A stretch of DNA of 64,000 bases from a virus, in IMG/VR virus record IMGVR_UViG_3300023178_000019, positions 1 through 64,000 of that record; one strand, 5' to 3'. A program made the position numbers and the translations under genes. Position 1 is the first letter of the stretch. Each line of letters opens with the position of its first letter. This document shows, one piece after another, positions 16,099-53,316 of the stretch. A model generated the notes under the pieces. It was not told the origin of the DNA and did no database searches. It worked only from the letters and a program-made list of their open reading frames with translations.

Positions 16099-16103
16099 TC
16101 TTT

Positions 16104-17389: not shown

Positions 17390-17942
17390 TTTTAAACTCA
17401 ATTTCAGCTGTTATGTATTTTTTAGTTTCGCTTAGTATGTTTTTTATAACTATATCTTTTTGATTAGATTTTTTTCTAATATCAAAAATAATTTTAGAAT
17501 TTTTATGTTTGTGTTTTTGTATCAGATGCTTATATGTAGACGCTGGATAATGAAAGCCGCAGCTAACAGCACTATAAAATAAATCAAATTTTATATTTTT
17601 GTCTATCTGAATGTTATTTGCATCTATAAAAACATACTCCATATTTCTTTCATCATATGTCTTTTTTAAATCTGTAATTTTACTGTAAAATTTAAAATCT
17701 TTTACGCCGCCGTAATTAGCATCACGAGGGTTATCTTTTGTATTATCAAAATCACCGTCTAACAAATATATTTTCGTTCCGAAGGTTTTATGAAAATGTT
17801 CGCTTTCTCTAGCAATACCACATCCTATATCTAACATAGTTTCTACAGGTCCAGTATAAGATGATATTTTTTTAAATATTTTTTCTTTTGACTCGGCATG
17901 ATAAGAGTTATTAAGCCAGCCTGTTATCCACTTATCGTCCAT
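17379..17942 (-). CDS. SAM-dependent methyltransferase-like protein
   Basis: This 187-aa protein has TMLDIGCGIARESEHF (about residues 35-50), motif I of class I methyltransferases, and KIYLLDGDFDNTKDN, the motif II acidic strand. A later LFYSAVSCGFHYP matches the catalytic-side strand. The substrate is not readable; a sugar intermediate fits the cluster. It overlaps the upstream GT25 gene by 11 bases and the FkbM gene downstream by 11. Confidence 0.65.
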   Translation of the reverse strand: MDDKWITGWLNNSYHAESKEKIFKKISSYTGPVETMLDIGCGIARESEHFHKTFGTKIYLLDGDFDNTKDNPRDANYGGVKDFKFYSKITDLKKTYDERNMEYVFIDANNIQIDKNIKFDLFYSAVSCGFHYPASTYKHLIQKHKHKNSKIIFDIRKKSNQKDIVIKNILSETKKYITAEIEFKNEI

Positions 17943-18516
17943 TTTTTAAATCCCAAGTAAAACTAAAGTCGTCTATTACATATGTAACAACAGTATTTAT
18001 TGGGTTATAAAACTGCAAATCAATTATTCCAGTGCATAGCATTGTATCTGCTGGCATTGCACCGTTAGTTTCTACAAAGTTTACAAGTTTTTTTGCACCT
18101 TGAGGACTAACACAATATCCCATTGCGCCGGCCCACCATTCACCTAAATAAATTTCCTTTGCTTTTTTATTAGTAGAAAGTTTAATAACATCATTAAATT
18201 CTACTTCCGGAAAAGATTTATGTATTGTAACATCATGCTCTAATATACAAATAGATTCGTCAAGTTCAATACATTTTTTCCATAATCGATAATGACTTAA
18301 GAAACATCCAACAGTGCCAACACGTTCAAATGATGCAATAGCCTTTTTATATTTAGAATTAATTTTTATGTTATAATCTTTTAACGTTTCTTTTTGTCCG
18401 TTACTACCTTCGAAAAAATATACATCCCAGTTATGCATCCTAGCAGACTTGTATGCTTTTTGTGCCCATTCTACGCTGTTAGGAAAATCAGACAATCGTA
18501 TAATATATGATTTCAT
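17932..18516 (-). CDS. Glycosyltransferase family 25-like protein
   Basis: The protein has 194 aa. VGCFLSHYRLWKKCIELDES (about residues 68-87) followed by ICILEHDVTIH (88-98) is the characteristic GT25 region of LPS galactosyltransferases such as LgtB/LpsA. A GAMGYCVSPQGAKKLV segment matches the acceptor side. These enzymes act at the cytoplasmic face on LPS core sugars. It overlaps the next gene upstream by four bases (ATGA) and is translationally coupled. Length is shorter than typical (about 250 aa). Confidence 0.75.
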   Translation of the reverse strand: MKSYIIRLSDFPNSVEWAQKAYKSARMHNWDVYFFEGSNGQKETLKDYNIKINSKYKKAIASFERVGTVGCFLSHYRLWKKCIELDESICILEHDVTIHKSFPEVEFNDVIKLSTNKKAKEIYLGEWWAGAMGYCVSPQGAKKLVNFVETNGAMPADTMLCTGIIDLQFYNPINTVVTYVIDDFSFTWDLKNGR

Positions 18517-19145
18517 TCTAAATAATTCCTGTATACATTGAGATATTTTTCAGTTTCTTTTTGTTCACCTTTAAGAGTTAAAAACGCACTAGGGTGTTTA
18601 AGTTTACCTATTGTAATCCAAAGTTTATCTGCTGCTTCAAATTTATACTTGTTTGCAAGTTGATTTAATATAGTTTGATCTCTTCCCCACCGCCATTTTT
18701 CAATCGGAGTAGAGGTTAGCTCGCTTGCATATTCTTGTCTAAACCCGTTATCGTTAAATGTAACGAATCCTGCAAGCCATCTGCTTTCTTTATGATGCTT
18801 TAGTACATATTGTTTTTCAAATAATCTCTCTGTAGCAACTTTTCCAATTCTACGTGTGCAAATAGTATCAGCATCAAGAGTTATAACATTTTCGTTATTT
18901 TTAAATTTATTAGCAACAGCTAAAAATCTTACACTTTGTAAATATGATATTTTTGATTCGTCGTTTACAAATTCTCGTTCTTCGGTAGTTATACTAACAT
19001 TATCTAAAGAATTTTCAACAGTAGGATTAACAATATGACAATGTAGATTAATCCAAGGGTTGTGCCTGTGAATACTTTCTAGTAAAGGCACAGCCCATTT
19101 ATTATAGTATTCTTGATCTACACCTAATAAAATATTACACTTCAC
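18513..19145 (-). CDS. GT-A glycosyltransferase (GT8-like)
   Basis: This 210-aa protein starts MKCNILLGVDQEYYNKWAVP. It has SVRFLAVANK before the metal motif VITLDADTICTRRIG (about residues 88-102), then AGFVTFNDNGFRQEY and GRDQTILNQLANKY, the usual order in GT8-like enzymes. It uses a nucleotide sugar and a divalent metal; the sugar is unknown. It is joined to its neighbours on both sides by four-base overlaps. Confidence 0.68.
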   Translation of the reverse strand: MKCNILLGVDQEYYNKWAVPLLESIHRHNPWINLHCHIVNPTVENSLDNVSITTEEREFVNDESKISYLQSVRFLAVANKFKNNENVITLDADTICTRRIGKVATERLFEKQYVLKHHKESRWLAGFVTFNDNGFRQEYASELTSTPIEKWRWGRDQTILNQLANKYKFEAADKLWITIGKLKHPSAFLTLKGEQKETEKYLNVYRNYLE

Positions 19146-19804
19146 TTTTTTGCCTTTGTTAAACTATAAATTTTTTGATCTATTGGTCCTTTAAATATTC
19201 CAAAACTTCTATTAGTAGAATCAAGGGTATTGTAATTAGATCTTTTTTTAAAAACGTGCATTTCCGGTAAAGTATAAACACTAAAATTTTTGTATATAAA
19301 GTTTCTAACACTTACATCAGATGCCCAATGTAATGTTTCTGTATCTAAAATATTATTTGCAAAATTATTAACAATATCAATAATATCTTTTCGAAGGATC
19401 ATCATTGCCATGCCTCCTTCATCGCCGTTCTTTTTTAGTCTACTAATATTAATAGCTTCGTGATTTTTAAAAATATTATTAATTATTTCTTGTGGTATAG
19501 ATTTAAGAGCAATAAGATCAATGTCAGAAACAACAACATTCTCGTTTACTACTGGCATACTTTTCCAACGACTTAGTGCGTAGTACCCTTTAGTATCTCT
19601 TCCTGTTGTATTATACTTTTGTTCTATATCTTCAAAACTAATATTTTCTTGGTTTAAGTAAGATATAGTAGAATTATTAGGTAGTTGATTACCTAAAAAA
19701 TATAAAGAAAATTTTGAGTTAGGATAAAACTGACGAATAGTTAAAGAATACAAATTATAAAAATTATTATAATATGTATTATCGGCAGCAGTGTGGAAGA
19801 TCAT
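19142..19804 (-). CDS. Glycosyltransferase-like protein with a DID metal motif
   Basis: This 220-aa protein starts MIFHTAADNTYYNNFYNLYS. VVVSDIDLIALKSIPQ (about residues 90-105) carries a DxD-type motif (D-I-D) and YALSRWKSMP just before it resembles the R..W segment of GT-A enzymes. EGGMAMMILRKDIID matches the second lobe. The gene starts inside the uvsY stop (ATGA), so translation of the glycan genes is coupled to recombination genes. The family assignment is weaker than for its neighbours. Confidence 0.55.
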   Translation of the reverse strand: MIFHTAADNTYYNNFYNLYSLTIRQFYPNSKFSLYFLGNQLPNNSTISYLNQENISFEDIEQKYNTTGRDTKGYYALSRWKSMPVVNENVVVSDIDLIALKSIPQEIINNIFKNHEAINISRLKKNGDEGGMAMMILRKDIIDIVNNFANNILDTETLHWASDVSVRNFIYKNFSVYTLPEMHVFKKRSNYNTLDSTNRSFGIFKGPIDQKIYSLTKAKK

Positions 19805-20256
19805 ATCGTAGCATCTTCCATTCCTGCTACACGTAGTTTAACTACGTTTGTAATTTGCCACTGCTTTTGATCAAGTGCTTTAAGCACACCTAACCATTTA
19901 TTTCTTATCAATGCAAATTCATTGATAATTTTTTCATAGTCAACTACATCTGCTTCACCGTCAACGTATTTTTCAACGTCACGACTAGACAAAGCTCTTT
20001 GATAGTTTTCAAGATACTTTTTAAAATATGAGCTACGCAATCTACGTAGCTCAATATTTAGATAGTTAAGAATGGCTTCAATTTCTTGTAGTTGATTAAA
20101 ACGATGTTCTACGATGCCTGGCATAGCAGCCGCACTTTTTTCGACATTACCTACGAGCTTACATTCTGCTCGTGCTTGTATCAGTTCTGTTTCAAAAAAA
20201 GATACAGCATCCGGTATTTTAGAAATGTCACGGCTTACTTCACTATACCATCCCAT
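19801..20256 (-). CDS. uvsY: UvsY recombination mediator
   Basis: UvsY loads UvsX recombinase on gp32-coated single-stranded DNA. This 151-aa protein (T4: 137 aa) has the helical, basic core ELRRLRSSYFKKYLENYQRA followed by SSRDVEKYVDGEADVVD (about residues 77-113), as in the UvsY family. It follows uvsX and a small acidic gene with one-base and eight-base overlaps, which is the order seen in marine T4-like phages. Downstream it overlaps a glycosyltransferase gene by four bases. Confidence 0.85.
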   Translation of the reverse strand: MGWYSEVSRDISKIPDAVSFFETELIQARAECKLVGNVEKSAAAMPGIVEHRFNQLQEIEAILNYLNIELRRLRSSYFKKYLENYQRALSSRDVEKYVDGEADVVDYEKIINEFALIRNKWLGVLKALDQKQWQITNVVKLRVAGMEDATI

Positions 20257-41010: not shown

Positions 41011-42434
41011 TGCAACATTTTTATGATGGACAAATACGTAGATATCTTACACAAATAGTTAGATTGTTTGGACAATTTAGTTATAAAGACGGTAAGGGTA
41101 GACTAGTACAAGTTCCAGTTACATACGGCGACTTAACAAGACAAGTAGGAAGTATCCTTAGAGATAATTCTGAAAATAAAATTCCTAGCGCACCAAGAAT
41201 GGCTGTGTATATAACCGGACTAGAAATGGATACTTCACGTCTAGCAGATAGCAGTTATGTTAATAAGCTAAACATTAGAGAACGTGCATATGATGTAGAC
41301 GGCCAAGAATATTTAAATAAAGCAGGTAAAAATTATACAGTAGAACGTATAATGCCAACCCCTTATACTCTTACTGTAAACGTAGACATATGGACTACTA
41401 ATACGGATCAAAAATTACAAATACTTGAACAAATTTTTATGTTGTTTAATCCTAGTTTAGAAATACAAACAACAGACAATTATATCGATTGGACTAGTTT
41501 AAGTGTTTTAAATATAGATAACATAAACTTTAGTAGTAGAAGTATACCAACTGGTACTGAAAGTGAAATTGATGTTGCTTCGATTAGTTTAACAACACCT
41601 ATCTTTATTAGTCCTCCTGCAAAAGTTAAAAAATTAGGAGTTATTAGTAAAATAATTACAGCAGTATTTGCAGATCACGGATTAGAAGTTAATATAGACG
41701 AAACTGCTTACACACAAAGTTTAGTTGAACAAAAAATTAAAGAGAACGAAGAAACAGACAAAGTTAATAGTCAACCAGATGAAGCATTGACTAATGAAAG
41801 TGCATTAGTAGTAACTACATATCAAGATTATGGATTAGAAGTGTTTGATGGTGTTGCAAGATTATTAAAGAATGGTGTTAATCGAAACGATACATGGACT
41901 GCTTGGAACATTGCGCAACCATTTACATTTGAACCTGGAATTACACAATTACGATTACAACGTGCAAACGGTTTAGAAATAGTATTTACTATTGATAGTA
42001 TTGATACTACAGACGAAACACGACTTATACTAAATGCTCCTGATGCAGAAACATTACCAGCAGATTCTGTTATACCAGGTCCTGCTGGTGACAAAACATA
42101 TGTTGATTATATTATAGATCCACTAAGATTTGATCCAATGCAATCGCAATCAAATAATAGACTTTTATTATTAGGTAGTATAGGTGATCCTAATAATACT
42201 AATGGCGCTCTGGCATGGAAGAATTCAGATAACTCAGATTTTGTAGCAAGTGAAAATGATATTGTAGAATGGGACGGTTCACGCTGGCACATTGTTTTTG
42301 ATGCTAGTGAAGAAACTAACGAAGCATTTGTAACTAATCTAAACACACAAACACAATACAAATGGACAGGCGAGTATTGGATACTCTCTTATGAAGGAGA
42401 ATATCCAAATGGCTCTTGGAGGTTTACATACTAA
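41010..42434 (+). CDS. 15: Tail sheath stabiliser and completion protein gp15 (enlarged)
   Basis: gp15 caps the T4 tail and binds the neck. Residues 1-215 fit: MQHFYDGQIRRYLTQIVRLF, VPVTYGDLTRQVGSILRDNS, IMPTPYTLTVNVDIWTTNTD and ISLTTPIFISPPAKVKKLG. T4 gp15 is 272 aa; this one has 474. The extra part includes an acidic linker and two Trp-rich segments (NGALAWKNSDNSDFVASEND; YKWTGEYWILSYEG) that resemble the additions in gp14 and gp18. It is the second gene of the plus-strand neck operon. Confidence 0.85.
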   Translation: MQHFYDGQIRRYLTQIVRLFGQFSYKDGKGRLVQVPVTYGDLTRQVGSILRDNSENKIPSAPRMAVYITGLEMDTSRLADSSYVNKLNIRERAYDVDGQEYLNKAGKNYTVERIMPTPYTLTVNVDIWTTNTDQKLQILEQIFMLFNPSLEIQTTDNYIDWTSLSVLNIDNINFSSRSIPTGTESEIDVASISLTTPIFISPPAKVKKLGVISKIITAVFADHGLEVNIDETAYTQSLVEQKIKENEETDKVNSQPDEALTNESALVVTTYQDYGLEVFDGVARLLKNGVNRNDTWTAWNIAQPFTFEPGITQLRLQRANGLEIVFTIDSIDTTDETRLILNAPDAETLPADSVIPGPAGDKTYVDYIIDPLRFDPMQSQSNNRLLLLGSIGDPNNTNGALAWKNSDNSDFVASENDIVEWDGSRWHIVFDASEETNEAFVTNLNTQTQYKWTGEYWILSYEGEYPNGSWRFTY

Positions 42435-42447
42435 GATAATTATTAGT

Positions 42448-42879
42448 ATGAAAGACATTATTTGTAGTGGTGCATTAATTTATTCTCTAAAGTCTAAAAT
42501 GTTTCTATTTCTGCATAGAGCAAACGGAAGCCGTAATAATGTTTGGGGCTTAGTTGGTGGAACTAACGAAGGTTTAGAAACACCCTGGGAAGGTTTGCGC
42601 AGAGAAATTGAAGAAGAAATAGGCTCTATAAATATAAAGAAAACTATTCCTTTAGAAACATTTGTATCTAACGATTCTAAGTTCCAGTTCCATACATATC
42701 TTTGCGTTATCGAAGATATTTTTATTCCTAAACTTAATAACGAGCATGACGGATTTGCTTGGGTAGAATTTAGTAAATGGCCGAAACCTTTACACTCAGG
42801 TTTGCAAAGCACTCTCAATAGAAAAAGTAATATTACTAAATTAAAAACAGTAATCGAAGTAATAGATTTACTTGACTAA
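42448..42879 (+). CDS. NUDIX hydrolase
   Basis: This 143-aa protein (MKDIICSGALIYSLKSKMFL) has a full NUDIX box at about residues 36-58: G-TNEGL-E, TPWEGLR, REIEEEIG, with the catalytic REIEEE core. These enzymes cleave nucleoside diphosphates linked to another group, such as NDP-sugars, NADH or damaged dNTPs. Immediately downstream lie ADP-heptose genes, so control of ADP-sugar levels is one possibility among several. The start follows gene 15 by 13 bases; the ATG at 42448 is preferred to one inside gene 15 at 42391. Confidence 0.82.
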   Translation: MKDIICSGALIYSLKSKMFLFLHRANGSRNNVWGLVGGTNEGLETPWEGLRREIEEEIGSINIKKTIPLETFVSNDSKFQFHTYLCVIEDIFIPKLNNEHDGFAWVEFSKWPKPLHSGLQSTLNRKSNITKLKTVIEVIDLLD

Positions 42880-42900
42880 TAATCATAAAGGTAGTATAAT
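42872..42900 (+). promoter_or_regulatory. Near-consensus sigma70 promoter for the heptose cassette
   Basis: TTGACT (42872-42877), a 17-base spacer and TATAAT (42895-42900), 11 of 12 consensus positions. The hldE ATG follows after five bases, so the mRNA probably begins at or beside the AUG. Much of the promoter lies in or just after the NUDIX stop codon, among late genes. Confidence 0.78.
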
Positions 42901-42905
42901 AAATT

Positions 42906-44048
42906 ATGTCTAAAGTATTAGTTATTGGTGATTTAATAAATGATAGGTATATTTTTGGTTCTTCGACTAGGTTAAGTCCTGAAGCACCTGTACCTATTGT
43001 AAGTCAGGATCGTATAGAAGAATTTCTTGGTGGCGCAGGACTTGTTTATAACAACTTAAAAAGTTTAGGCGTCGATGCAACTTTATTAGAATACGACGAT
43101 CCAAAAAGTGAAAAAACTCGTGTAATCTGTGATGGCCATTATGTTACAAGAATAGACGACGATCGTTATGCTAACGGATTAGATATTTACAATGATATTA
43201 AAAAATTAGATTTATCTAATTTTGAATATGTTATTCTTAGCGATTACAATAAAGGTGTATTAGAATATTCAAAAGATATTATTGCACATCTTAATAGTTT
43301 TGATTGTAAAGTTATTGTAGATCCTAAACGCCACGTTAGTTGTTATGACGGGGCTTGGTTAGTAAAACCTAATTACAAAGAATACAAAGAATTAGGGTTT
43401 GAAAAATGGGACGGTAATATAATTGTCACTAATTCTAGTAAAACTACTACTGCTGAATTTGATTTAAAACGTTATGTTTCGCAACCTGAACCTTTAGAAG
43501 TTAATGATGTAACCGGAGCCGGAGATTGTTTTCTTGCTGCATTTGTTTATGCGCTAACTAAAGGGTATGATTATCAAAAAGCATTAGATTTAGCAAATAG
43601 AGGATCAACTGAAAGTGTAAAACACGTAGGTACATATATTCTTACTGAAAAAGACTTGAATAAACGTATTGTTTTTACTAACGGATGTTTTGATGTATTG
43701 CACAAAGGTCATCTTACATTACTAAAAGAAGCTCGCAGTTTAGGTGATAAACTTGTAGTAGGACTGAATAGTGACGGTAGTGTAAAACGCTTAAAGGGAG
43801 ACAACAGACCGTTTAACGATCTTGAAACAAGACGAGAACAATTAGAACTTATTCCGTATGTAGACGAAGTTATTGTATTTCATGAAGATACGCCATATGA
43901 GCTTATTAAAGAACTAAAGCCAGACTTAATTGTTAAAGGTGGAGACTATACTGTAGAAGAAATTGTAGGACATGATTTAGCACCTGTGCATATTGTACCT
44001 ACAGTACAAGGTTACAGTACAACAAAAATTTTAGAGGCGTCTGTATGA
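42906..44048 (+). CDS. hldE: Bifunctional heptose-7-phosphate kinase/heptose-1-phosphate adenylyltransferase
   Basis: HldE phosphorylates D-glycero-D-manno-heptose-7-phosphate and later adenylates heptose-1-phosphate to ADP-heptose. Residues 1-245 are a PfkB/ribokinase-type kinase: GDLINDRYIFGSSTRLSPEA at the start, an FLGGAGLVYNN segment and DVTGAGDCF (201-209) with catalytic Asp in GAGD. Residues 253-380 are the nucleotidyltransferase: FTNGCFDVLHKGHL (257-270) and IVKGGDYTVEEIVG. E. coli HldE is 477 aa, so the kinase half is compact. hldD overlaps the end by four bases. Together with hldD and gmhB this covers all steps after GmhA. Confidence 0.92.
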   Translation: MSKVLVIGDLINDRYIFGSSTRLSPEAPVPIVSQDRIEEFLGGAGLVYNNLKSLGVDATLLEYDDPKSEKTRVICDGHYVTRIDDDRYANGLDIYNDIKKLDLSNFEYVILSDYNKGVLEYSKDIIAHLNSFDCKVIVDPKRHVSCYDGAWLVKPNYKEYKELGFEKWDGNIIVTNSSKTTTAEFDLKRYVSQPEPLEVNDVTGAGDCFLAAFVYALTKGYDYQKALDLANRGSTESVKHVGTYILTEKDLNKRIVFTNGCFDVLHKGHLTLLKEARSLGDKLVVGLNSDGSVKRLKGDNRPFNDLETRREQLELIPYVDEVIVFHEDTPYELIKELKPDLIVKGGDYTVEEIVGHDLAPVHIVPTVQGYSTTKILEASV

Positions 44049-44863
44049 AAATTTTAATTACTGGACACAAAGGATTTATTGGACAAAATCTAACTCTTAG
44101 ATTACAAGACGAACACGAGCTATCAGGATATGAATGGCAAGCTGATTATTTGCCTGAAGTTGAAGGCTATGATTGGGTTATTCATTTAGGTGCTATTTCA
44201 AGCACAGCTGAACGTAATGTTGATAAGATCATGTTACAAAATTATGAATTTTCAAAATGGTTGTTTAATCAATGTAATCTAAAAGGTGTAAATTTTCAAT
44301 ATGCATCTAGTGCAAGTGTATATGGACCATACGAAAAGTTTAAAGAAGAAGATCCAAAACAACCACAAAGTCCGTATGCTTGGAGCAAGTATCTTTTTGA
44401 TAGATGGGTTACTGGACTCTCAAAAAGAAACATTATAGTTCAAGGATTTAGATATTTTAATGTATACGGTCCTTTAGAAGACCACAAAGGACATCAAGCA
44501 AGTCCTATAACTAAATTTACTAATCAAGCAAAAGAAACTGGTACTATTTCTTTATTTGAAAACAGCGACAAATACAAAAGAGATTTTATTTTTGTAGGCG
44601 ATGTATGTGAAGCACATAAAAAATTATTATCTAGTGATGTTTCCGACATTTATAATATAGGAACAGGAACTACTACAAGTTTTCAACAAATAGCAGACAT
44701 TATTGCTAAAAAATATGATGCAAAAATTAAATATGTACCGATGCCGGATCATTTAGCAAATCAATATCAAGAGTACACATGTGCAGACAATTCAAAATTA
44801 AGTAATATTGTAAAAATTAATTTTACAACAGTAGAGGAATATATAAATGGATCAGCCAACTAG
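44045..44863 (+). CDS. hldD: ADP-L-glycero-D-manno-heptose 6-epimerase
   Basis: HldD inverts C6 of ADP-D,D-heptose to give the LPS donor ADP-L,D-heptose. This 272-aa protein (E. coli: 310) is a short-chain dehydrogenase/epimerase: GHKGFIGQN nucleotide loop (7-15), VIHLGAISSTAER (about 55-67), YASSASVYGP, the Y-x3-K pair in SPYAWSKYLFD, and FRYFNVYGPLEDHKGHQASP with the heptose-epimerase HKG...S pattern. Four-base overlap with hldE upstream and 17-base overlap with the cupin gene downstream make it part of one tight operon. Confidence 0.9.
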   Translation: MKILITGHKGFIGQNLTLRLQDEHELSGYEWQADYLPEVEGYDWVIHLGAISSTAERNVDKIMLQNYEFSKWLFNQCNLKGVNFQYASSASVYGPYEKFKEEDPKQPQSPYAWSKYLFDRWVTGLSKRNIIVQGFRYFNVYGPLEDHKGHQASPITKFTNQAKETGTISLFENSDKYKRDFIFVGDVCEAHKKLLSSDVSDIYNIGTGTTTSFQQIADIIAKKYDAKIKYVPMPDHLANQYQEYTCADNSKLSNIVKINFTTVEEYINGSAN

Positions 44864-45233
44864 AAAGTCAGGTGTAGATCAAAAAGGTTGGGGCTACGAA
44901 ATGATTTGGGCCACAAATGATTTATACTGCGGAAAAATTATGGTGTTTACTAGAGCTGGAGCAAAAACTAGTATGCACTTTCATAAAGAAAAAGACGAAA
45001 CTTGGTTTGTAAACAACGGCAAATTTAAGGTTGCATACATTGATACAAAAAATTCAAAACTACATGAAAAAGAACTTAATGAAGGCGAAGTTTGGAGGAA
45101 TCCTCCATTACAGCCACATCAATTAATTTGTCTTTCGAAAGAAGGAAGTGTTACAGAAGTTAGCACTCCAGATAGTGTTGAAGACAACTATAGAATTATT
45201 CCCGGCGACAGTCAAGTATTAAGCGAAGAATAA
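44847..45233 (+). CDS. Cupin protein in the heptose cassette
   Basis: In this 128-aa protein, the cupin signatures GAKTSMHFHKEKDETWFVNN (about residues 38-57) and LNEGEVWRNPPLQPHQLICL (about 77-96) show HFH...E and a second histidine in PHQL, as in type II mannose-6-phosphate isomerase cupins. In this cassette it might isomerise or sequester a heptose intermediate; GmhA, the missing sedoheptulose isomerase, is a different fold, so it is not an obvious replacement. Function is inference. Confidence 0.75.
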   Translation: MDQPTRKSGVDQKGWGYEMIWATNDLYCGKIMVFTRAGAKTSMHFHKEKDETWFVNNGKFKVAYIDTKNSKLHEKELNEGEVWRNPPLQPHQLICLSKEGSVTEVSTPDSVEDNYRIIPGDSQVLSEE

Positions 45234-45234
45234 A

Positions 45235-45933
45235 ATGTATAGCATAAACTGGAGCAATAAAAAATCAGACAACACTGTATCCGATAAAAAAGAATCTGCG
45301 ATTCGATACAGTACAGATAAAACAGAAGAAGAATATAATATTCCATTCTACGATACTGTGAATAATATTGCACCAAAAGTTGTTGTAGGTTTAGATAGAG
45401 ACGGTGTTATTAATGTTGATCGTGGAGACTATACCTACAAGGTAGACGACTTTGAACCGATCGAAGGTAGTTTAAAAGCAATAGCTAAAATTCGTAGACT
45501 AGGTCATAAAATTGTTATTATAACAAATCAAGGCGGTATAAGTAAAGGCATTTATACTCAAAACGATGTTGACACTGTACATAATCATATGTTTAATTTA
45601 TTAGGTGAAGCAGGCTGTGCAAGTATAGATGCTCTTTATTATAGCGAAACTAGTGCTAGATGGGACCAGTATGCAAAACCTAATACCGGTATGTTTAAAA
45701 GATGTGAAAAAGAATTTCCTTTTATTAAATTTTCAAAAGGATTTTATGTAGGCGATAAAATATCAGATCTAAAAGCTGCTTTTAAAATGGGAGCAAAGCC
45801 TGTACTAGTAAAAACAGGCTACGGAAATGAAACGTTAAAAGAACTTAACAAGTTTTCTAATCAAAAAATTAAAAAGAAAACTATTGTTTTTGATAATTTA
45901 TCTAGCTTTGCTGATTGGTTATCTCGTCGATAG
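45235..45933 (+). CDS. gmhB: Heptose-1,7-bisphosphate 7-phosphatase-like HAD protein
   Basis: GmhB removes the 7-phosphate from heptose bisphosphate. This 232-aa protein has the HAD motifs VGLDRDGVINVDRG (D54/D56), VIITNQGGISKGIY and FYVGDKISDLKAAF. Residues 1-48 are an extra N-terminal segment. The Cys/His zinc loop of many GmhB proteins is missing: where it would be, the sequence reads YYSETSARWDQYAKPNTGMF. Histidinol-phosphatase is a less likely alternative. It ends by overlapping the convergent 2OG-oxygenase gene by 32 bases. Confidence 0.85.
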   Translation: MYSINWSNKKSDNTVSDKKESAIRYSTDKTEEEYNIPFYDTVNNIAPKVVVGLDRDGVINVDRGDYTYKVDDFEPIEGSLKAIAKIRRLGHKIVIITNQGGISKGIYTQNDVDTVHNHMFNLLGEAGCASIDALYYSETSARWDQYAKPNTGMFKRCEKEFPFIKFSKGFYVGDKISDLKAAFKMGAKPVLVKTGYGNETLKELNKFSNQKIKKKTIVFDNLSSFADWLSRR

Positions 45934-46525
45934 CTATTCCAAAATTTGCACTAATAGTGGATCTTAATTCATCAGCCTTGTGTGTTGATACATAATGATC
46001 TAAACTAGCAGGAAAGAAAATAATATCCCCTTCTTCTAGCGGCGGCGTAACTCTTCTTCCCATAAACGGTTTGTTTGTAAAGCATTGTGCAAGATGTACC
46101 GGAAAATGACTGTAACTAGAATCATAAAAAGAAAAACTTGCACTGTTTGGTGGTAACTTTAACATATATGCACAGCTAATTACTAAATTTCCACCACTAT
46201 GGGAATGTACTTCTTGGTATTGTCCTTTTGTATATCTATTTGCCCATGCTTGTCCGTACATTTTTTCACATGCTTCTTGTGACAATCCTATAGAATATGC
46301 ATATTCGTCTACTAAATTATAAACAGTTTTAAAAAACAAATGCCAAGGAAATAAACTATTTTTTTCATCATTTTGAATTGTTGTTCTACAGTCACAATCC
46401 CAAAATGTTGCTTGATCAAAATTATCTTCAGACTCAATAAAAGGAGTAAATCCTTTTAAAATTTCTTCGTGATTAGGCATTTTTGTTTTATATACAGGTG
46501 TGCCAAAAATTACATTAAGACTCAT
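45902..46525 (-). CDS. 2OG-Fe(II) oxygenase-like protein
   Basis: The protein has 207 aa. YTKGQYQEVHSHSGGNLVIS (about residues 98-117) carries the first iron histidines (H-S-H), GDIIFFPASLDHYVSTHKA (about 163-181) the distal histidine, and ELRSTISANFGI the arginine for 2-oxoglutarate. This is the same general family as the protein at 3870-4583. Its gene overlaps the carbamoyltransferase gene upstream by 11 bases, so it may hydroxylate the same sugar or acceptor. The exact substrate is unknown. Confidence 0.7.
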   Translation of the reverse strand: MSLNVIFGTPVYKTKMPNHEEILKGFTPFIESEDNFDQATFWDCDCRTTIQNDEKNSLFPWHLFFKTVYNLVDEYAYSIGLSQEACEKMYGQAWANRYTKGQYQEVHSHSGGNLVISCAYMLKLPPNSASFSFYDSSYSHFPVHLAQCFTNKPFMGRRVTPPLEEGDIIFFPASLDHYVSTHKADELRSTISANFGIAIDEITNQQS

Positions 46526-48308
46526 TTTTTACCTTTACTAACTTTTTCTTTTCTGGCAAATACAAATATTCAATTTTACTTTTTGCTAGTGTATGGAATG
46601 CATCTTCTAAAGTTTCAACTAGAGGATCGCCGCCTAAATTAAAACTTGTATTAAAAATAATCGGACAACCTGTCTTTTCTTTAAAGGCTTTAATCAAATC
46701 ATAGTAGTTTGCATTTTGTTCTCTGTTAACAGTTTGAATACGGCAAGTTCCGTCTACGTGAATAATAGCAGGAATCTTTTCTTCTACTCCGGGCTGACAA
46801 TTAACAGCATACATCATTGTAGGAGAGTTTTTCATACCTCGCAAGTCAAACCATTCATGCACATCTTCTTCTAGAATAGATCCTGCAAATGGGCGGAAAT
46901 ATTCTCTGTTTTTAACACGATTTACAAAATCTTTTCCGTCAGGATCTGTTGGATCATAAAGAATACTTCTATTACCTAATGCACGTGGGCCGTTTTCACT
47001 ACGTCCTTGAAATATTGTAACAATATTTTTGTTTGTAATTAAGTCGATAACATCTTCATTAGTAGCATCTGTAACTTCGGCAGAGTATTTTTTTGCTAGT
47101 TGTTGGATATCACCTTCTGTAATTTTATAATCTGGTCCTAGATAAACAGTTTCAGCTTGAGAATCAATCGACATATCTTTAGTAAGACTTCTATGTAACC
47201 ACAATGCTGCACCCATTGCAGTGCCGCCGTCATTTGAAACCGGCTCTACATAAAGATTAATATCATTGTCTATCTCTTTTAAATAATGATAATTTGCAAC
47301 ACAATTCAACCCATATCCACCGCTTATAACAACATTTTTAATTCCTGTAGATTCAACAGCATGTTTTATTAGTTGAGTTACCGCTGCTTGAGATTCTACT
47401 TGTACTGCATATGCCATATCTCTTCTATTTTGGCATAGTGTTGCATCTTCTTCACCTTTGTCAATCAAATAACTATATAAATTTTCGTTTAGAATAGAAC
47501 CGTTTGGATATCTCGGAACAAATAAACTTCTATTACTTACTGGAATAGGCAAATCAGTATATGGATCAAATACCGGAGGAATTAAATCATTAGGTTTACC
47601 ATATGGAAATAATCCCATAGTTTTTCCAGCTTCAATGGCATCCCAGCCACAGTATTCTGTTACACCCTCATAACACTTAACAATGCCTGCTCTATCAGAT
47701 AACGAAGTTGAAAATTTACCTATTTCTTTACCAAAAATATCTTGATCAGGTGCTGTAAGTTCTGCTGTTGGCAGATAGTCTCTACAACCCATAGTTTTAA
47801 AAAGAGTTTGTATATTGTCTGGATATGTACATTTATATAATGTTTCAGTTTCCCACATATGTTTTATAGATCCGTCAACTTCTAAATCAAAACAAGTCCC
47901 AGCACCGTCAACAATAACTGCTACTGCTTCTTCAAAGCCACTTCTATAAAATGCTAAACTGGCATGCATTTTATGATGTAGTTTAGATACATCGATTACT
48001 TGTGGATGCGGATCCCAAGGCGGAGAATACTCTATTAGACCTACTTTTCTAGCAAGACCTGTGTAAATATCCTCAGCAGTATAATCAACTCTACCAGCTG
48101 TTTCTGCAAGAGTTTGTGTATGCGATATTACCATGTAATCAAGTTTGTCTGTATACTCTAAAATTTTTAGAATTGACGCTAACGGTCCTCCATCGTACTT
48201 TTTACGAGTAAGTCTTTCTTCTTCAATAGAAAAAACTATTTCTCCATCTTTTAATAAGCATACTCCAGCATTGTGTCCTCTAGCAAGTCCTGCTATCCAC
48301 ATACTCAT
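46515..48308 (-). CDS. NodU/TobZ-type O-carbamoyltransferase
   Basis: This family forms carbamoyl-adenylate from carbamoyl phosphate and ATP and transfers the carbamoyl group to a hydroxyl, often of a sugar. The 597-aa protein has a Kae1-like domain (GLARGHNAGVCLLKDGEIVF; KLHHKMHASLAFYRSGFEEA with the metal histidines; VVISGGYGLNCVANYHYLKE) and the C-terminal carbamoyltransferase domain (FQGRSENGPRALGNRSIL; IIFNTSFNLGGDPLVE). Full length and motifs suggest activity. Overlaps: ATGA with the GT9-like gene upstream, 11 bases with the oxygenase downstream. A heptose residue is a plausible acceptor. Confidence 0.9.
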   Translation of the reverse strand: MSMWIAGLARGHNAGVCLLKDGEIVFSIEEERLTRKKYDGGPLASILKILEYTDKLDYMVISHTQTLAETAGRVDYTAEDIYTGLARKVGLIEYSPPWDPHPQVIDVSKLHHKMHASLAFYRSGFEEAVAVIVDGAGTCFDLEVDGSIKHMWETETLYKCTYPDNIQTLFKTMGCRDYLPTAELTAPDQDIFGKEIGKFSTSLSDRAGIVKCYEGVTEYCGWDAIEAGKTMGLFPYGKPNDLIPPVFDPYTDLPIPVSNRSLFVPRYPNGSILNENLYSYLIDKGEEDATLCQNRRDMAYAVQVESQAAVTQLIKHAVESTGIKNVVISGGYGLNCVANYHYLKEIDNDINLYVEPVSNDGGTAMGAALWLHRSLTKDMSIDSQAETVYLGPDYKITEGDIQQLAKKYSAEVTDATNEDVIDLITNKNIVTIFQGRSENGPRALGNRSILYDPTDPDGKDFVNRVKNREYFRPFAGSILEEDVHEWFDLRGMKNSPTMMYAVNCQPGVEEKIPAIIHVDGTCRIQTVNREQNANYYDLIKAFKEKTGCPIIFNTSFNLGGDPLVETLEDAFHTLAKSKIEYLYLPEKKKLVKVKNES

Positions 48309-49285
48309 ACATTTTCTCCGAAATTTTCTTTTGGTTGTTTAGGTGCAGTCTTAATAGACTTACCTACAGTTTGTTTAATTGATTTTACGATATCATTAAT
48401 ATGTTCTTTGCTCATATTCATTGCTTTATCGTTTAATCTATCTGGTTCTTCTTCAGTACTTACACGTATAGGACTATAAACTCTTCTACCGTCTCCTATA
48501 TCAAACACTGTTATATCTTTGTCATTTAGATAAGTTGTGTTGATAGGAAAAGTACTTCCTGTAATTACAGTTGCTTGTTTTCCTAAAGATTTTGCAATAT
48601 GTTGTCCTACACTGTCACAACCTAAGAAATGATCAGCTGCTTCTATTACACCTGCCCATATTCTAATATCCGGTATTTGAGGTTGTGCAAGCGGAGTGTT
48701 ATCGCCGTCTTCATTATAAAATGGTAAGGGAAGTTCACTCATAATAATAACACCATAATCTTGTTTCAGTTGATTAGCAATATCAAGCATATCTTCTGCT
48801 CTAAAACTTCTAGATGTTTGGTCTATTAAACTTTCTTCAACACCTCGGCCAAATGGTTGTATTACAATAACTTTATTAAATCCAGTAACATCTTTTACTT
48901 CTTGTACTACTGATTTTCCATTATGCTGTTCTGATTTATTAAGATATATGTTAGGTATAGGTACTTCTCTTATGCCTTGTTTATTAATTTCAATATCAAA
49001 TGCTTGTGCAAGACTACATTTTTGATTATAATATTCCCATATACGATATGGTTCTGGACTTACACAATTTCTATCTTTGATATATTGTTCAAATAATCCT
49101 TTATGCCATACATCGTATGCACGTCTATGAAGTGTAGGATGTCCTTTATAAAAGTCAGTTCCGCCTTCGCAAACAATAATAAAATCGTCATTTGGATTTT
49201 CTTTTTCATATAGTTCAAGTGCTGGAATTGAGGTTATAACACGACCGGCACCGCCGTTAATAAAGAATGCTGTAGATCTAGTCAT
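48305..49285 (-). CDS. GT9 heptosyltransferase-like protein
   Basis: GT9 enzymes move L,D-heptose from ADP-heptose onto LPS inner core. In this 326-aa protein the N-terminus INGGAGRVITSIPALELYEK (residues 9-28) corresponds to the family's G-x-GD-x-x-x-x-P-A loop, GFNKVIVIQPFGRGVEESL to the second-domain start, and AADHFLGCDSVGQHIAKSLG (about 217-236) to the 'D-S-G-x-x-H-x-A' donor site (D-S-V-G-Q-H here). The donor would be supplied by the cassette at 42.9-45.9 kb. The family is likely; sugar specificity is inferred from context. It starts the operon after a perfect late box. Confidence 0.75.
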   Translation of the reverse strand: MTRSTAFFINGGAGRVITSIPALELYEKENPNDDFIIVCEGGTDFYKGHPTLHRRAYDVWHKGLFEQYIKDRNCVSPEPYRIWEYYNQKCSLAQAFDIEINKQGIREVPIPNIYLNKSEQHNGKSVVQEVKDVTGFNKVIVIQPFGRGVEESLIDQTSRSFRAEDMLDIANQLKQDYGVIIMSELPLPFYNEDGDNTPLAQPQIPDIRIWAGVIEAADHFLGCDSVGQHIAKSLGKQATVITGSTFPINTTYLNDKDITVFDIGDGRRVYSPIRVSTEEEPDRLNDKAMNMSKEHINDIVKSIKQTVGKSIKTAPKQPKENFGENV

Positions 49286-49311: not shown

Positions 49312-49319
49312 TATTTATA
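49312..49319 (-). promoter_or_regulatory. Perfect T4 late promoter box for the GT9/carbamoyltransferase operon
   Basis: TATAAATA on the minus strand, 26 bases before the ATG at 49285, with AAAAGG near the start. This puts the transfer and carbamoylation genes under late control, whereas the convergent donor-synthesis cassette has a sigma70 promoter. Confidence 0.7.
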
Positions 49320-49360
49320 GTACACTTGATCCTATAATTACAAAAATGGTTTCATAAAAA

Positions 49361-49384
49361 AAGGCTGTACAAATATACAGCCTT
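49361..49384. terminator. Bidirectional hairpin terminator
   Basis: AAGGCTGTA pairs with TACAGCCTT around a CAAATA loop, with A-run and T-run on both sides, so it can work in either direction. It follows the minus-strand adhesin operon that ends at 49405. Confidence 0.82.
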
Positions 49385-49404
49385 TTAAGTTTTATATGTA
49401 ACAG

Positions 49405-50244
49405 TTATTCACCGTATGGGTTATTAGAATCATAGCCTTCAACGCCATACTCTTCATTTAGTTCATCACACTCTGGCCAACAAGAATCAACAAAGATTAA
49501 ATCAATTCCTGCATCTTGCATTACTTGCGGAAAGTCTCTAAGACGTTGCTTGTATGTTTCGATGCCTGCGGCTCTGTCTGCATCTACGCTTGAAAAAACC
49601 ATTGCCGGTGCATCTGCTTCGGCAAGTCTTTGGTTTCTCTCAACTTTTATCATAGGCCATGTCTGAGGTAGTCCCATTACATCTACGTTTGAATTTTTAT
49701 ATAGGTCTAACGAATTAGTTTCAAAGTTCCATATAGATTTTTTATCATCGTATAACTCGTCTGGATGAATTGGATATTCGTATGAAAAATGTCCATACCC
49801 TTCAATCGGAGTTGCAGGGATTGTTTTTTCACCAGGAGTTTCCTCCCAATCTTCTAAATCTTTATAATTATCATGATAATCTGATAAAACTTCAGCACCC
49901 AATGGATCTACAGTAGCATCGAGTTTAATAAGTTCTACTTCTTCTGGAATTTGACTAAAATCTTGTGTGATTTCTCTTGCTTCAAATTCTCTCCATACAG
50001 ACTCAAATGATCCTACAGGATTTGCTCCTTCCGTATCCTTCCAAGCATAAAAATAAAGATACTTAGGTCCTTTATATGTCATACTAATTGTTTCTGTTGT
50101 TTCACCGTCTAGATAATTATCATTAGGACAATCATATGTATAATTTACCTCAACCCACTCAGTACCGTGTTCATCAGTATCTGTTATAGTACGATAATCA
50201 ACTACTTCGCTTTCTAATTCATCATTTAAATTGTCATCAGCCAT
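49405..50244 (-). CDS. Acidic virion-associated protein candidate, 279 aa
   Basis: This protein starts MADDNLNDELESEVVDYRTI and is very acidic throughout. Short landmarks are YLYFYAWKDTEGANP, SIWNFETNSLDLYKN and LIFVDSCWPECDELNEEYGV. It has no known domain. It is the last gene of a minus-strand adhesin block and starts three bases after the Cys-rich gene, with GGAGATAATTA as ribosome site. A fibre-tip or fibre-chaperone role is possible. Confidence 0.6.
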   Translation of the reverse strand: MADDNLNDELESEVVDYRTITDTDEHGTEWVEVNYTYDCPNDNYLDGETTETISMTYKGPKYLYFYAWKDTEGANPVGSFESVWREFEAREITQDFSQIPEEVELIKLDATVDPLGAEVLSDYHDNYKDLEDWEETPGEKTIPATPIEGYGHFSYEYPIHPDELYDDKKSIWNFETNSLDLYKNSNVDVMGLPQTWPMIKVERNQRLAEADAPAMVFSSVDADRAAGIETYKQRLRDFPQVMQDAGIDLIFVDSCWPECDELNEEYGVEGYDSNNPYGE

Positions 50245-50247
50245 TAA

Positions 50248-51111
50248 TTATCTCCAAGTAATTCTTACTAGTCCAGGATTTCCAGGTGTACCTCTACAGT
50301 TTCCTAAATCCTGTCCACACGTTGCTTTAATTAGATTTGACCCTGCCTTGGCAATTTGTCTAAATCCTTTACAACAATTTGTACAACCGCAGTACTTAGT
50401 ACCTGTCTGCATAGCATATTCGTGTCTATTTTTAATACCCCATGATTCTGATGTAGCACTTGCTCGTGAACCACAGTTCATGTTTGATCTGTATCTGTTA
50501 AAATAAGATTCGTTACCTAAGTCAACAAAATCCCATTTACAACCAATACATAGTCCTAAGTTACACATGCCTTCACTTCTGTTACCTTGGTTGATACAGA
50601 AGCATACACAATATAGATTGTATCCGCCTCTTCCGCCCGGTACACATCCGCAACATATACCCGATCCGCTAAACCAACTACCACATCCTCTTGGTGCATC
50701 ACAACAAGCCGTAAAACACCCACAACCGTTATTGGTTGTACCATTGCCGCCTGCTCCTACACAGTAGTTGTAACTACATCCTGGTACAAACTGTCCATCA
50801 ATTCTTCTAATAGTCTTCCGACCATAATATCCAGCATAAGCGCCACAACTTGCAATGTCGCAGAAACAGTTTCTACAACATTGGCCTGCTCCCGAGCCGC
50901 CGCCACTCCATACTTCAAATGTTATCTCTGATGCACACGTTGGTGCCGACCAACTTCCGCAACGTCCGCAGTGCGCTCGACATCCGTGCGGACCGTTACA
51001 CACTGAGCATGTATTAAAACATTGAAACATGCCCCCAGAGGTAACACCTTGTGTTCTTTGGCACGTTCCGTCTGGAAATCTAATACCATCTGCGTATAAA
51101 CAAGTTGCCAT
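50248..51111 (-). CDS. Extremely cysteine-rich glycine-rich protein (37 Cys in 287 aa)
   Basis: The N-terminus MATCLYADGIRFPDGTCQRT contains a 'GIRFPDGT' fibre-tip-like motif. The body is Gly- and Cys-rich with CC and CxC pairs (GQCCRNCFCDIASC; GSGICCGCVPGGRGGYN; YCGCTNCCKG). I count 37 cysteines, about 13% of residues. The C-terminus GTPGNPGLVRITWR has the Gly-rich strand ending typical of phage and bacterial fibre tips. There is no signal peptide. It likely forms a disulfide-stabilised or metal-binding adhesin at the tail-fibre tip; this is inference from composition and from its position beside the S74 fibre. Confidence 0.7.
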   Translation of the reverse strand: MATCLYADGIRFPDGTCQRTQGVTSGGMFQCFNTCSVCNGPHGCRAHCGRCGSWSAPTCASEITFEVWSGGGSGAGQCCRNCFCDIASCGAYAGYYGRKTIRRIDGQFVPGCSYNYCVGAGGNGTTNNGCGCFTACCDAPRGCGSWFSGSGICCGCVPGGRGGYNLYCVCFCINQGNRSEGMCNLGLCIGCKWDFVDLGNESYFNRYRSNMNCGSRASATSESWGIKNRHEYAMQTGTKYCGCTNCCKGFRQIAKAGSNLIKATCGQDLGNCRGTPGNPGLVRITWR

Positions 51112-53316
51112 TTATTCCTCTCCTTTTAAACTATTTATTTCTGCTTTTAGTTCTTTGATTGCTTCAACTAATAATGGTACAAGTCTTTCGTATTGCAATG
51201 TTATGTAGTCATTGCCTGAAATACTTTCACCTTCTTCTCCTCTATCAAATGGAGCATCGTGAATCACTTGAGGAAGAACTTTTTGAACCTCTTGCGCTAT
51301 TAAACCTACTTCTTCGACTTCAGCACTAAATCCAGCTTCAATGGCTGTTTCATTCCAGTTATATGTTATACCGTTTAGTGACATAACTTTATCTAATGCA
51401 CTGTCAATGTTTTTAATATTTGTTTTAAGTCTTGCATCTGAAGTATTTGAAATAATATTTTCAGTAGCAGTAATACGTCCTGCAACGTTTGGATCTGCTG
51501 TGTTAACACCAATACAACGTACACTTGTAAGATTTTTGCTTGAGTCAAACAAATCATTGCCTGCCATTTTAATAGCACCAACGTTTACGTTAATACCTGT
51601 ATCGTCTAAAATTTGGAACCAAATTTTATTTGAATCTTCTGGTTCTTTAAAGTCTAATCCTTCAGGTGTTGCAAGTATTTCACAGTCAACGCCTGAGTCA
51701 CTTGAACCATTAAATGTAATACCTGGATTAGTAGTACCGTATAAGTTTATTTTACCGCCGTTATTATTAATAGTACCGTTAATAGTATGTGAGTCACTTG
51801 TTGCATTACCTAGTGTGCCGTTACCGTTATAACTAAAGTTACCACTTGCACTTAGACTTGTAAATGCACCTGAACTAGCACTACTTGCACCGATTGACAT
51901 ATTGTTAATTGTACCACTACCCGGGTTAAGTGTTAGTGACCCTGCTGGTGATATAGTAACTGTACCTGTACCACTTGGTGACATAGTTACGTTAGCATTA
52001 TTTGGTGAAAATGTAACTGTTGAGTTAGCATCGAGTGTTGTAAACTGTCCAGTACTTCTTGATACGTTACCAATTGCGCCTACAAAGCCGCCTCCTGAAT
52101 AAACACGTTTAGCAATACTTGCACCACCTTCACAACGTAACTGTCCTGTGTCACCTGTTGCATTTGTTGCTTCACCTGTGCCTGTAATATCTACTACACC
52201 ACTTGCTGTTACACTTGTAAAAGTACCTGTATTGCTACTTACGTTACCAATTGGACCTTGGAAACTACCTGAATAAAGTGCTCCGCTTACACCTAATCCG
52301 CCTGTTATAACTACTGTACCTGTTGTAGTATTAGTTGATGCTGTATTTGCTGTAAATGTTGTTGCACCGCTTGATGTTAGTGTAGTAAATGCACCTGTAT
52401 TAGCTGTACCGCTGCCAACTGGCCCATTGATTCCGCCTGCGTAGATTGATCCACCTACGCCTACACCACCTGTTACAACTACTGCACCGCTTCCTGTTCC
52501 TGAACTTGCTGTTGCAGAGCTAAGTGTTACATTACCACTTGCGTTAAGTGTTGTAAATCTACCAGTTCCTGGTGTTGTAGCACCAATATTCATGCCATCT
52601 ATTGTACCTGCACTGTCAGAACTAATTGTTACTGTAGTACCTGATCCTATTACTACTGGACCATCTGGATCTATAGTAACTGCTGAACCTGCATCTGTTG
52701 GAGAAATTGTAACAGTTTGTCCTGACGTTGTAAATTCAATGTTACCTGGAAAACTTGTAGTTTCTCCTGCATCACCGATTGATACTGTACCCGTACTAGA
52801 ACTTAAATTTAAGTTTCCTGCAGGACGAATAGTTGCTTGTCCGCCTGGCTGTATTGAGACGGAGGATTGCGGACTAATGTCAACTGTTCCTGTTCCTGTT
52901 GGTTTAATTTGTATGTTTTCATCTGCAGGATTAAGTTCTACTGGACCATCTGCATTTAGTACATCATTAAATGTAACTGGTAATTCAAATACTGTAGTAC
53001 CTGCTAACGCACTTGTTAGAACGTAATTAGTACCGTCTGATGTTAAAGTATAAGTTGAGTTTGTTGGAATATCAATCTCAGTACCTAGTGTAACACCGTT
53101 ACCAGTAATTTGTCCTGCTGCTGTACTAAGAGTAATCATATCAGCAGTAGCATTATAAAATGTTTGTTTGCTACCAGGGAAAAATACAGGACTTACCATT
53201 TCAACTGTATATCCCGGAGTTCCGGTTAAACTGATAATTCCACCTGTAAACGCATAGGTAAATTCTGTTGCTCCGGTTACTTCTAGCGTTTGTGGTGCTG
53301 TATTATAACGTGCCAT
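51112..53316 (-). CDS. Tail fibre/spike with C-terminal S74 intramolecular chaperone
   Basis: The protein has 734 aa. The C-terminal about 110 residues (SDARLKTNIKNIDSALDKVM; GLIAQEVQKVLPQVIHD; ITLQYERLVPLLVEAIKELK) are a Peptidase_S74 chaperone that trimerises the shaft and normally cleaves itself off at the Ser of the SDAR-LK site. The rest is Gly/Ser/Thr-rich with at least four loose repeats of about 56-60 residues (for example NTGAFTTLTSSGATTFTANT and VVITGGLGVSGALYSGSFQG). It has no ribosome site of note and starts one unit after the small virion gene. Confidence 0.85.
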   Translation of the reverse strand: MARYNTAPQTLEVTGATEFTYAFTGGIISLTGTPGYTVEMVSPVFFPGSKQTFYNATADMITLSTAAGQITGNGVTLGTEIDIPTNSTYTLTSDGTNYVLTSALAGTTVFELPVTFNDVLNADGPVELNPADENIQIKPTGTGTVDISPQSSVSIQPGGQATIRPAGNLNLSSSTGTVSIGDAGETTSFPGNIEFTTSGQTVTISPTDAGSAVTIDPDGPVVIGSGTTVTISSDSAGTIDGMNIGATTPGTGRFTTLNASGNVTLSSATASSGTGSGAVVVTGGVGVGGSIYAGGINGPVGSGTANTGAFTTLTSSGATTFTANTASTNTTTGTVVITGGLGVSGALYSGSFQGPIGNVSSNTGTFTSVTASGVVDITGTGEATNATGDTGQLRCEGGASIAKRVYSGGGFVGAIGNVSRSTGQFTTLDANSTVTFSPNNANVTMSPSGTGTVTISPAGSLTLNPGSGTINNMSIGASSASSGAFTSLSASGNFSYNGNGTLGNATSDSHTINGTINNNGGKINLYGTTNPGITFNGSSDSGVDCEILATPEGLDFKEPEDSNKIWFQILDDTGINVNVGAIKMAGNDLFDSSKNLTSVRCIGVNTADPNVAGRITATENIISNTSDARLKTNIKNIDSALDKVMSLNGITYNWNETAIEAGFSAEVEEVGLIAQEVQKVLPQVIHDAPFDRGEEGESISGNDYITLQYERLVPLLVEAIKELKAEINSLKGEE
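51900..52600 (-). repeat. Coding repeats in the S74 fibre shaft
   Basis: Successive units of about 170-180 bases encode segments of the form 'S(T)GxFTTLxASGxxTF...VVITGGxGVxGxxYxG'. At least four diverged copies are seen. They encode beta-structured shaft modules, not a nucleic-acid repeat element. Confidence 0.6.

Follow-up and report, generated by a model that had tools for sequence, protein, structure and literature searches.

A phage glycosyltransferase–carbamoyltransferase gene pair coupled to hyper-cysteine tail-tip genes and often accompanied by ADP-heptose synthesis genes

The window analysed here, 64 kb out of the 98.6 kb record IMGVR_UViG_3300023178_000019 of a marine phage, carries two converging gene modules. 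Module B is hldE-hldD-cupin-gmhB; module A consists of genes for a glycosyltransferase-like protein (GT) and an O-carbamoyltransferase (CT), often plus a 2-oxoglutarate (2OG)-Fe(II) oxygenase. A first-pass annotation had described them as a single system of novel composition, adding a carbamoylated and hydroxylated heptose to host lipopolysaccharide (LPS) as the first choice or else to virion proteins. We found that the GT–CT pair is strictly coupled to genes for hyper-cysteine tail-tip proteins, and this association, rather than the gene combination, is the surprising element; we found no description of it in the open-licence literature. Judging from the sequences, we favour late glycosylation and O-carbamoylation of the phage's own hyper-cysteine tail tip over modification of host LPS, and put the chance of this reading at about even.

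Among 101 nonredundant GT loci, 99 encode within 5 kb upstream of GT one to three hyper-cysteine proteins (7–15% Cys, mostly 14–21% Gly, 240–370 aa). The other open reading frames (ORFs; n = 766) have a median of 1.5% Cys, and only two reach 6%. One of the exceptions, L070, has matches to the tip family, and its near-twin L069 has hyper-cysteine genes just past the 5 kb limit; the other is the 78 kb Vibrio phage D505, in which a distant GT homologue (L214:8983-9720) lies inside a structural gene cluster with neither a CT nor a hyper-cysteine protein. Even the most distant carriers, L313 and L314, have proteins of 9–11% Cys beside GT–CT. When loci of at least 13 kb were tallied, a hyper-cysteine protein was present in all 103 testable nonredundant GT–CT loci and in none of the 8 heptose loci without GT–CT (L313 and L314 are not among the latter, and L156, which ends 1 kb upstream of GT, is untestable). 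The resulting Fisher P value of about 2e-11 is descriptive only, because the loci are related. A single iterated profile family takes in all 374 hyper-cysteine sequences, the copy in the window among them. As the tip relatives of the window clade were too few for the converse association, we used the named phages and the loci without GT–CT: within the named phage collection, hyper-cysteine homologues were found in GT–CT carriers and nowhere else, with one exception, a contig end from the same single cell.

The six ORFs of the first-pass annotation all exist where it placed them, and hldE, hldD, gmhB, CT and the oxygenase have family matches far above chance. It left out the fourth plus-strand gene, the cupin, and its limits stopped short of 49405-53316, where genes for the chaperone, the hyper-cysteine tip and the tail fibre form the natural context of module A. 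The features of the locus are the following.

42391-42879, plus strand: Nudix hydrolase (PF00293, E 3e-13)
42872-42900, plus strand: sigma70-type promoter TTGACT-17-TATAAT (11/12 match), ending 5 nt before the hldE ATG
42906-44048, plus strand: hldE-like, 380 aa, a shortened heptose-7-phosphate kinase fused to a heptose-1-phosphate nucleotidyltransferase (NCBIfam HldE, 4e-83)
44045-44863, plus strand: hldD-like ADP-heptose 6-epimerase, 272 aa, with a short dinucleotide-binding region (HldD model, 3e-71)
44847-45233, plus strand: cupin between hldD and gmhB, a candidate sugar-phosphate isomerase
45235-45933, plus strand: gmhB-like HAD phosphatase (PRK08942, the GmhB model, 4e-40) with no zinc-loop cysteines
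45902-46525, minus strand: 2OG-Fe(II) oxygenase (2OG-FeII_Oxy_5, PF13759, 2e-13), the final gene of module A
46515-48308, minus strand: CT of the NodU/TobZ superfamily (Carbam_trans_C PF16861, 1e-59; PF02543, 1e-23)
48305-49285, minus strand: GT, a GT-B glycosyltransferase-like protein (phrog_8954) with a GT9/TibC-like fold by model
49312-49319, minus strand: T4-type late promoter, TATAAATA, with the start codon of GT 34 nt downstream
49359-49386, no strand assigned: palindromic, terminator-like hairpin with T runs on both sides, separating the tail-fibre operon from module A
49405-50244, minus strand: tail-fibre assembly chaperone-like protein (Phage_tail_APC, 1e-6; phrog_4912 tail fiber assembly, 1.5e-5)
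50248-51111, minus strand: putative tail-tip protein of hyper-cysteine, Gly-rich composition, with 12.9% Cys and 17.4% Gly, the proposed substrate (sub-threshold match to Gly_rich_2; best structural matches of its low-confidence model, the cyanophage Pam3 fiber and the Bxb1 tail tip)
51112-53316, minus strand: tail fibre with a C-terminal S74 chaperone domain (Peptidase_S74, 3.5e-18)

The hldE and hldD ORFs overlap by 4 nt. GT, CT and the oxygenase are linked by start/stop overlaps on the minus strand and converge on gmhB, which the oxygenase gene overlaps by 32 nt.

In IMG/VR, 440 stretches encode GT and 537 encode HldE. Among the 73 nonredundant GT loci from IMG/VR and phages, 63 have a CT no more than 600 nt from GT. 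Of 68 S-CAM1-like CT loci, 65 have GT immediately before CT, the remaining three being GT-CT-CT. Tip, chaperone or fibre genes stand just upstream of GT in 66/70 loci. Downstream, hld genes occur within 9 kb in 39 of 57 GT loci. An oxygenase homologue, the variable gene of module A, lies within 9 kb in 34/57. S-CAM1-like loci are uniform, with hldC, hldK, cupin and hldD all alongside GT–CT in every testable case (59/59). Heptose synthesis without the pair was found as well, with hldE-hldD-cupin but no GT–CT at 8 loci; in L161, L129, L157, L111 and L128, these genes are followed by a tail-fibre gene, directly or after one small gene. In phage P-TIM68 the heptose genes belong to a sugar operon, and the stretch covered there contains no CT. 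Since GT–CT also occurs without hld genes close by (see below), we regard heptose synthesis and GT–CT as separable neighbours that often travel together, and not as the single obligate system first proposed; their promoters differ, too. In window-type loci the Nudix gene consistently lies upstream of hldE, whether or not the relative carries GT–CT.

The combination itself has precedents. P-SSM2, P-SSM5, S-SSM7, S-CAM1, S-CAM3, Sf-FS3 and single-cell marine viruses carry GT and CT together with heptose genes, and all of these named phages except P-SSM5 were seen to co-locate a GT-like gene, CT, heptose kinase, nucleotidyltransferase, small HAD, cupin and epimerase. The search for co-occurrence suggested with the first-pass annotation thus had a positive outcome, at the cost of its claim of novelty: the genes form a conserved cassette of cyanophages and of hundreds of IMG/VR contigs, previously uninterpreted. 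The cassette has been annotated piecemeal, and we found no functional assignment in the literature, although its members T4-GC 304, 305, 307 and 308 were noted to co-occur and to be possibly functionally linked LPS genes (Sullivan 2010, PMC3037559). Bacterial homologues of GT were limited to seven contigs of metagenome-assembled genomes. As CT adjoins GT in each and tail-tip or fibre genes are present in most, we rejected a truly bacterial origin and took these contigs as misbinned phage.

The promoters suggest different timing for the two modules. A TTGA/TATAAT promoter precedes hldE in 32 of 60 distinct relatives, about 5 nt from the ATG, and the late motif in none of the 60. A similarly strong sigma70 promoter lies upstream of 10340 (minus strand), also ending about 5 nt before the ATG; as promoters so placed suggest leaderless phage transcripts, the hldE transcript is probably leaderless. 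Upstream of GT, the late element NATAAATA was found in 52 of 96 distinct sequences, compared with 5.6 in dinucleotide shuffles, and it occurs only 0–2 times each upstream of CT, hldE, hldK, hldC, hldD and cupin. Within the whole window TATAAATA is rarer than chance (4 found, 10.2 expected), so support for the late promoter comes from its conservation in relatives and not from the one match. Late-type elements in the window also precede other genes, among them the tail tube gene, the 39860 gene and the cysteine-rich tip gene, which has its own motif AATAAATA at -28. Precursor synthesis would therefore be early, with module B probably an early module, and sugar transfer late.

The relation of GT to known transferases is seen in its predicted structure. 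Its AlphaFold (AF2) model has a mean confidence (pLDDT) of 86, with the Rossmann strand beginning at residue 5, and a Foldseek search retrieved the GT9 structure 3tov (1e-9, TM 0.64), WaaC (1e-7) and TibC (1e-7). The match to Pfam GT9 (PF01075) scored 12.7 bits against a gathering cut-off of 22 (E 0.078, no hit at E ≤ 0.001); among relatives, 13 of 41 gave weak matches, the best with E 0.0014. An N-G-G-x-G-R motif, including Arg15, is invariant in the 41 sequences. According to the model, the fold and phosphate site appear GT9-like; heptosyl specificity, acceptor residue and step order are putative. The earlier description as a GT9-like transferase thus stands for the fold but not for the Pfam threshold or the catalytic residue.

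Both domains of CT exceed their cut-offs (Carbam_trans_N 84.9 bits, cut-off 24; Carbam_trans_C 201.1 bits, cut-off 27), the protein matches solved O-carbamoyltransferases (PDB 7xb6, 6e-57; TobZ, 6e-41) and it corresponds to phrog_1601 (6e-164). The name NodU-type is apt at the level of the superfamily; the NCBIfam NodU equivalog, at 146.6 versus 1000 bits, is not reached. A second CT type is found in S-CAM8 (L311), amid several 2OG-Fe(II) oxygenases between tail-fibre genes; it adjoins a cysteine-poor tail protein of 30% Gly and has no GT neighbour. The oxygenase of module A may hydroxylate protein or sugar.

Module B encodes ADP-heptose-type enzymes with their motifs kept, as the first-pass annotation had it, though in short forms. 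HldE joins a PfkB domain to a nucleotidyltransferase domain, and D139, the kinase motif GAGD (D207) and the nucleotidyltransferase motif HxGH (H266/H269) are kept in 60/60 distinct sequences; its kinase part, about 245 aa against a model of 315 positions, is not full length. HldD shares 40% identity with its E. coli counterpart, keeps the catalytic Ser/Tyr/Lys and HKG motifs and matches PDB 1eq2 (5e-47). The DxD catalytic pair and conserved Lys of GmhB are retained (D56 in 55/56 and K148 in 56/56 sequences), whereas none of the aligned sequences examined has the zinc-binding Cys loop. As short phage forms, all three enzymes fall under their equivalog cut-offs (HldE 279.6 versus 521 bits in NCBIfam; HldD, full length, 240 versus 274.6 bits; GmhB 137 versus 178 bits). 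In other loci phrog_1238/T4-GC 306, annotated as a phosphoheptose isomerase, has a DxDGT motif (L003:16915-17259, L005:12768-13091) and seems, by sequence, to be a small HAD phosphatase that takes the place of gmhB. Transketolase produces sedoheptulose-7-phosphate, and in P-TIM68 a transketolase-annotated gene (L007:8847-9992) lies directly 5' of the phage heptose kinase.

Synthesis from heptose-7-phosphate is plausible, yet an SIS-type GmhA (SIS_2) was found neither in the phage's own record nor in 12 related records, all of them partial. The cupin accompanies the hld genes in all loci of three sets (17/17, 59/59 and 39/39), and does so also in P-TIM68. Its profile matches D-lyxose isomerase (5e-6), and 11 of 15 members match the GMP_PMI model; the resemblance to mannose-6-phosphate isomerase is weak, and oxalate decarboxylase is resembled too. 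The isomerisation of sedoheptulose-7-phosphate to manno-heptose-7-phosphate chemically parallels that of fructose-6-phosphate to mannose-6-phosphate, which makes the cupin a candidate replacement for GmhA as sedoheptulose-7-phosphate isomerase, a proposal we make tentatively and hold less likely than not. Elsewhere in the window, the ORF at 15303-16148 (minus strand) fuses an HldE-type nucleotidyltransferase to a mannose-6-phosphate-isomerase-type cupin (PF01050, 9e-21), a domain pairing as in bacterial ManC but with a nucleotidyltransferase of a different type. The findings suggest that the annotation names phosphoheptose isomerase (phrog_1238) and cysteine dioxygenase (phrog_7851) both mislead.

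Taken together, we infer the enzyme activities, the heptose donor, the tip acceptor, the order of steps and the benefit to the phage as follows. Module B would make ADP-heptose from sedoheptulose-7-phosphate, perhaps with the cupin as isomerase in place of GmhA. Late in infection, GT would attach a sugar (in the simplest case heptose) to the Gly-rich hyper-cysteine tip protein encoded just upstream, with Cys, Ser or Thr as candidate acceptor residues, and CT would O-carbamoylate the tip-bound sugar, maturing or protecting the host-binding tip. The tip protein is proposed as acceptor because of the late promoter, the fixed position and the strict coupling, and since the pair adjoins tail-tip genes in more than 100 related phages, GT–CT probably decorates the phage's own tip and not the host surface. 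TibC, which heptosylates autotransporter adhesins, gives a precedent for heptose on an adhesin protein (PMC4358343). A more daring and fairly improbable version has the cysteine thiols of the tip, or adjacent residues, as acceptors of a heptose-type sugar, which CT would O-carbamoylate in turn; the receptor-binding surface would become thiol-capped and densely glycosylated, and only late in infection, with the cupin as a hitherto unrecognised sedoheptulose-7-phosphate isomerase.

Several observations weigh against decoration of the tip with heptose. In 28 of 102 nonredundant loci, GT–CT has no hld gene in the stretch covered, and heptose therefore need not be the donor. GT belongs to its family at the level of the fold only, with 9–12% identity to the structural matches; a profile search of PDB with the sequence found nothing and the profile–profile comparison (hhalign) with WaaC/WaaF was not significant, and we accordingly dropped GT9 membership from sequence. 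The candidate catalytic base of TibC, an Asp, was found by superposition on WaaC (PMC4358343); in a weak local hhalign alignment Arg15 of GT sits at this position (WaaC Asp13/TibC Asp110; AGR versus MGD). With a fold match lacking the catalytic Asp, GT is GT9-like in fold and phosphate site only. The tip model is of low confidence (pLDDT 62). The loci share ancestry, hence the counts represent non-independent events, and tail-fibre loci are insertion hot spots. Finally, KdsA and KdsB, encoded by the window phage, also fit a surface polysaccharide bearing heptose and 3-deoxy-D-manno-octulosonic acid (Kdo).

This last point touches on the possibility that the target of GT–CT is host LPS or capsule, where a carbamoylated heptose would prevent superinfection or mask receptors; co-inheritance of receptor-binding and receptor-masking genes would then explain the tail-fibre site. 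WaaC/WaaF are among the nearest folds of GT, the window phage has, besides kdsA/kdsB, a second glycosyltransferase-like island, and cyanophage sugar clusters have previously been read as LPS genes (PMC3037559). Receptor masking, however, does not predict the strict hyper-cysteine linkage, and GT has a late promoter. Several cultured carriers infect Synechococcus. Heptose and Kdo are both missing from the LPS of marine Synechococcus (PMC4515613), which makes a role in the inner core of LPS unlikely in these phages. We consider modification of the host surface unlikely overall; of the two targets in the first-pass annotation, virion proteins gain support and the priority given to host LPS does not. 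We assign a similarly low probability to the two halves being functionally unrelated, such that module B feeds other phage or host glycosyltransferases, and GT–CT puts a host nucleotide sugar on the tip or CT acts on side chains hydroxylated by 2OG oxygenases. The separate occurrence of the modules, their different promoters, the CT-free sugar operon of P-TIM68 and the GT-free CT of S-CAM8 beside oxygenases all fit this, but the nearest solved relatives of the GT fold are heptosyltransferases and the S-CAM1-like loci keep GT–CT, hldC, hldK, cupin and hldD together throughout.

Two further explanations appear much weaker. The sugar genes could be largely non-functional or drifting stuffer DNA, an option raised by Sullivan 2010 (PMC3037559) and consistent with the shortened enzymes; as active-site residues are kept in dozens of diverged copies, promoters are conserved and gene order is fixed, we find this very improbable. 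Least credible of all is DNA hypermodification as by the phage 5-hydroxymethylcytosine (5hmC) carbamoyltransferase (eLife 2021). CT belongs to the same superfamily, and 5hmC carbamoylation by a phage-associated enzyme has been experimentally shown (PMC8670742). That system travels with thymidylate-synthase/dCMP-hydroxymethylase homologues, and thymidylate synthase (PF00303) was found in neither the own record (0/1) nor the related ones (0/12), all partial; on this ground 5hmC-type carbamoylation was rejected. In the same study, carbamoyltransferases on unmodified contigs adjoin glycosyltransferases (PMC8670742), as CT does here.

The phage has myovirus-type genes, the closest relatives of its terminase are jumbo phages such as PA5oct (54%), and no photosystem gene that would mark it as a cyanophage was found in its own record. 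Other sugar genes lie further away in the window. Adjacent kdsB and kdsA, for CMP-Kdo synthesis, occupy 2454-3885 (minus strand; KdsA 344 bits, NCBIfam cut-off 242); of 50,697 phage records, no more than 14 contain KdsA relatives, among them cyanophage S-SCSM2R with both kds genes. The second sugar island, at 10355-20256, has glycosyltransferase-like and sulfotransferase-like ORFs, and most ORFs scanned there have no PHROG match. At 4830-5486 (minus strand), a queuosine/preQ0 precursor transporter-like gene (TIGR00697, above cut-off) hints at deazaguanine metabolism.

The sugar genes that marine phages carry are commonly classed as LPS genes with no defined use. For one widespread cassette, the association reported here points to a specific, testable target, a hyper-cysteine tail-tip protein, and sets GT–CT apart from heptose synthesis. 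If decoration of the tip is true, phages abundant in the ocean attach sugar and carbamoyl groups to the very tip with which they recognise their hosts, with a bearing on host range, stability in oxygenated seawater and the prediction of receptor-binding proteins. With P-SSM2, S-CAM1, S-CAM3 and S-SSM7 as cultured carriers, the question is directly testable.

Compared with known systems, the window is closest to the cyanophage cassette T4-GC 302-308 (P-SSM2, S-SSM7, S-CAM1, S-CAM3), which has the same families, tail-fibre surroundings and hyper-cysteine tip genes upstream. There, the kinase and nucleotidyltransferase are separate and in reversed order, the other strand carries the epimerase, and gmhB is replaced by a HAD of 107–116 aa, whereas in the window kinase and nucleotidyltransferase are fused in the order of bacterial HldE and the modules are convergent. 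The bacterial HldE-HldD-GmhB pathway has the same enzyme set and motifs; the phage differs in its shortened enzymes and in an invariant cupin where no SIS-type GmhA was found. TibC/Aah (BAHT) share the GT-B fold and are among the best matches of GT, which lacks their N-terminal beta-barrel, clustered four-Cys iron finger and equivalent of Asp110. With WaaC/WaaF (GT9), GT has in common the fold and a phosphate-binding D-S/T-x-G-like motif, but identity is 12%, the Asp13 position is Arg and the score is below the Pfam cut-off. CT has both domains and the conserved residues of NodU/TobZ, far from the NodU equivalog cut-off, and it shares superfamily and phage origin with the 5hmC carbamoyltransferase (eLife 2021), differing in its tail-fibre context, where no partner of thymidylate-synthase type was found.

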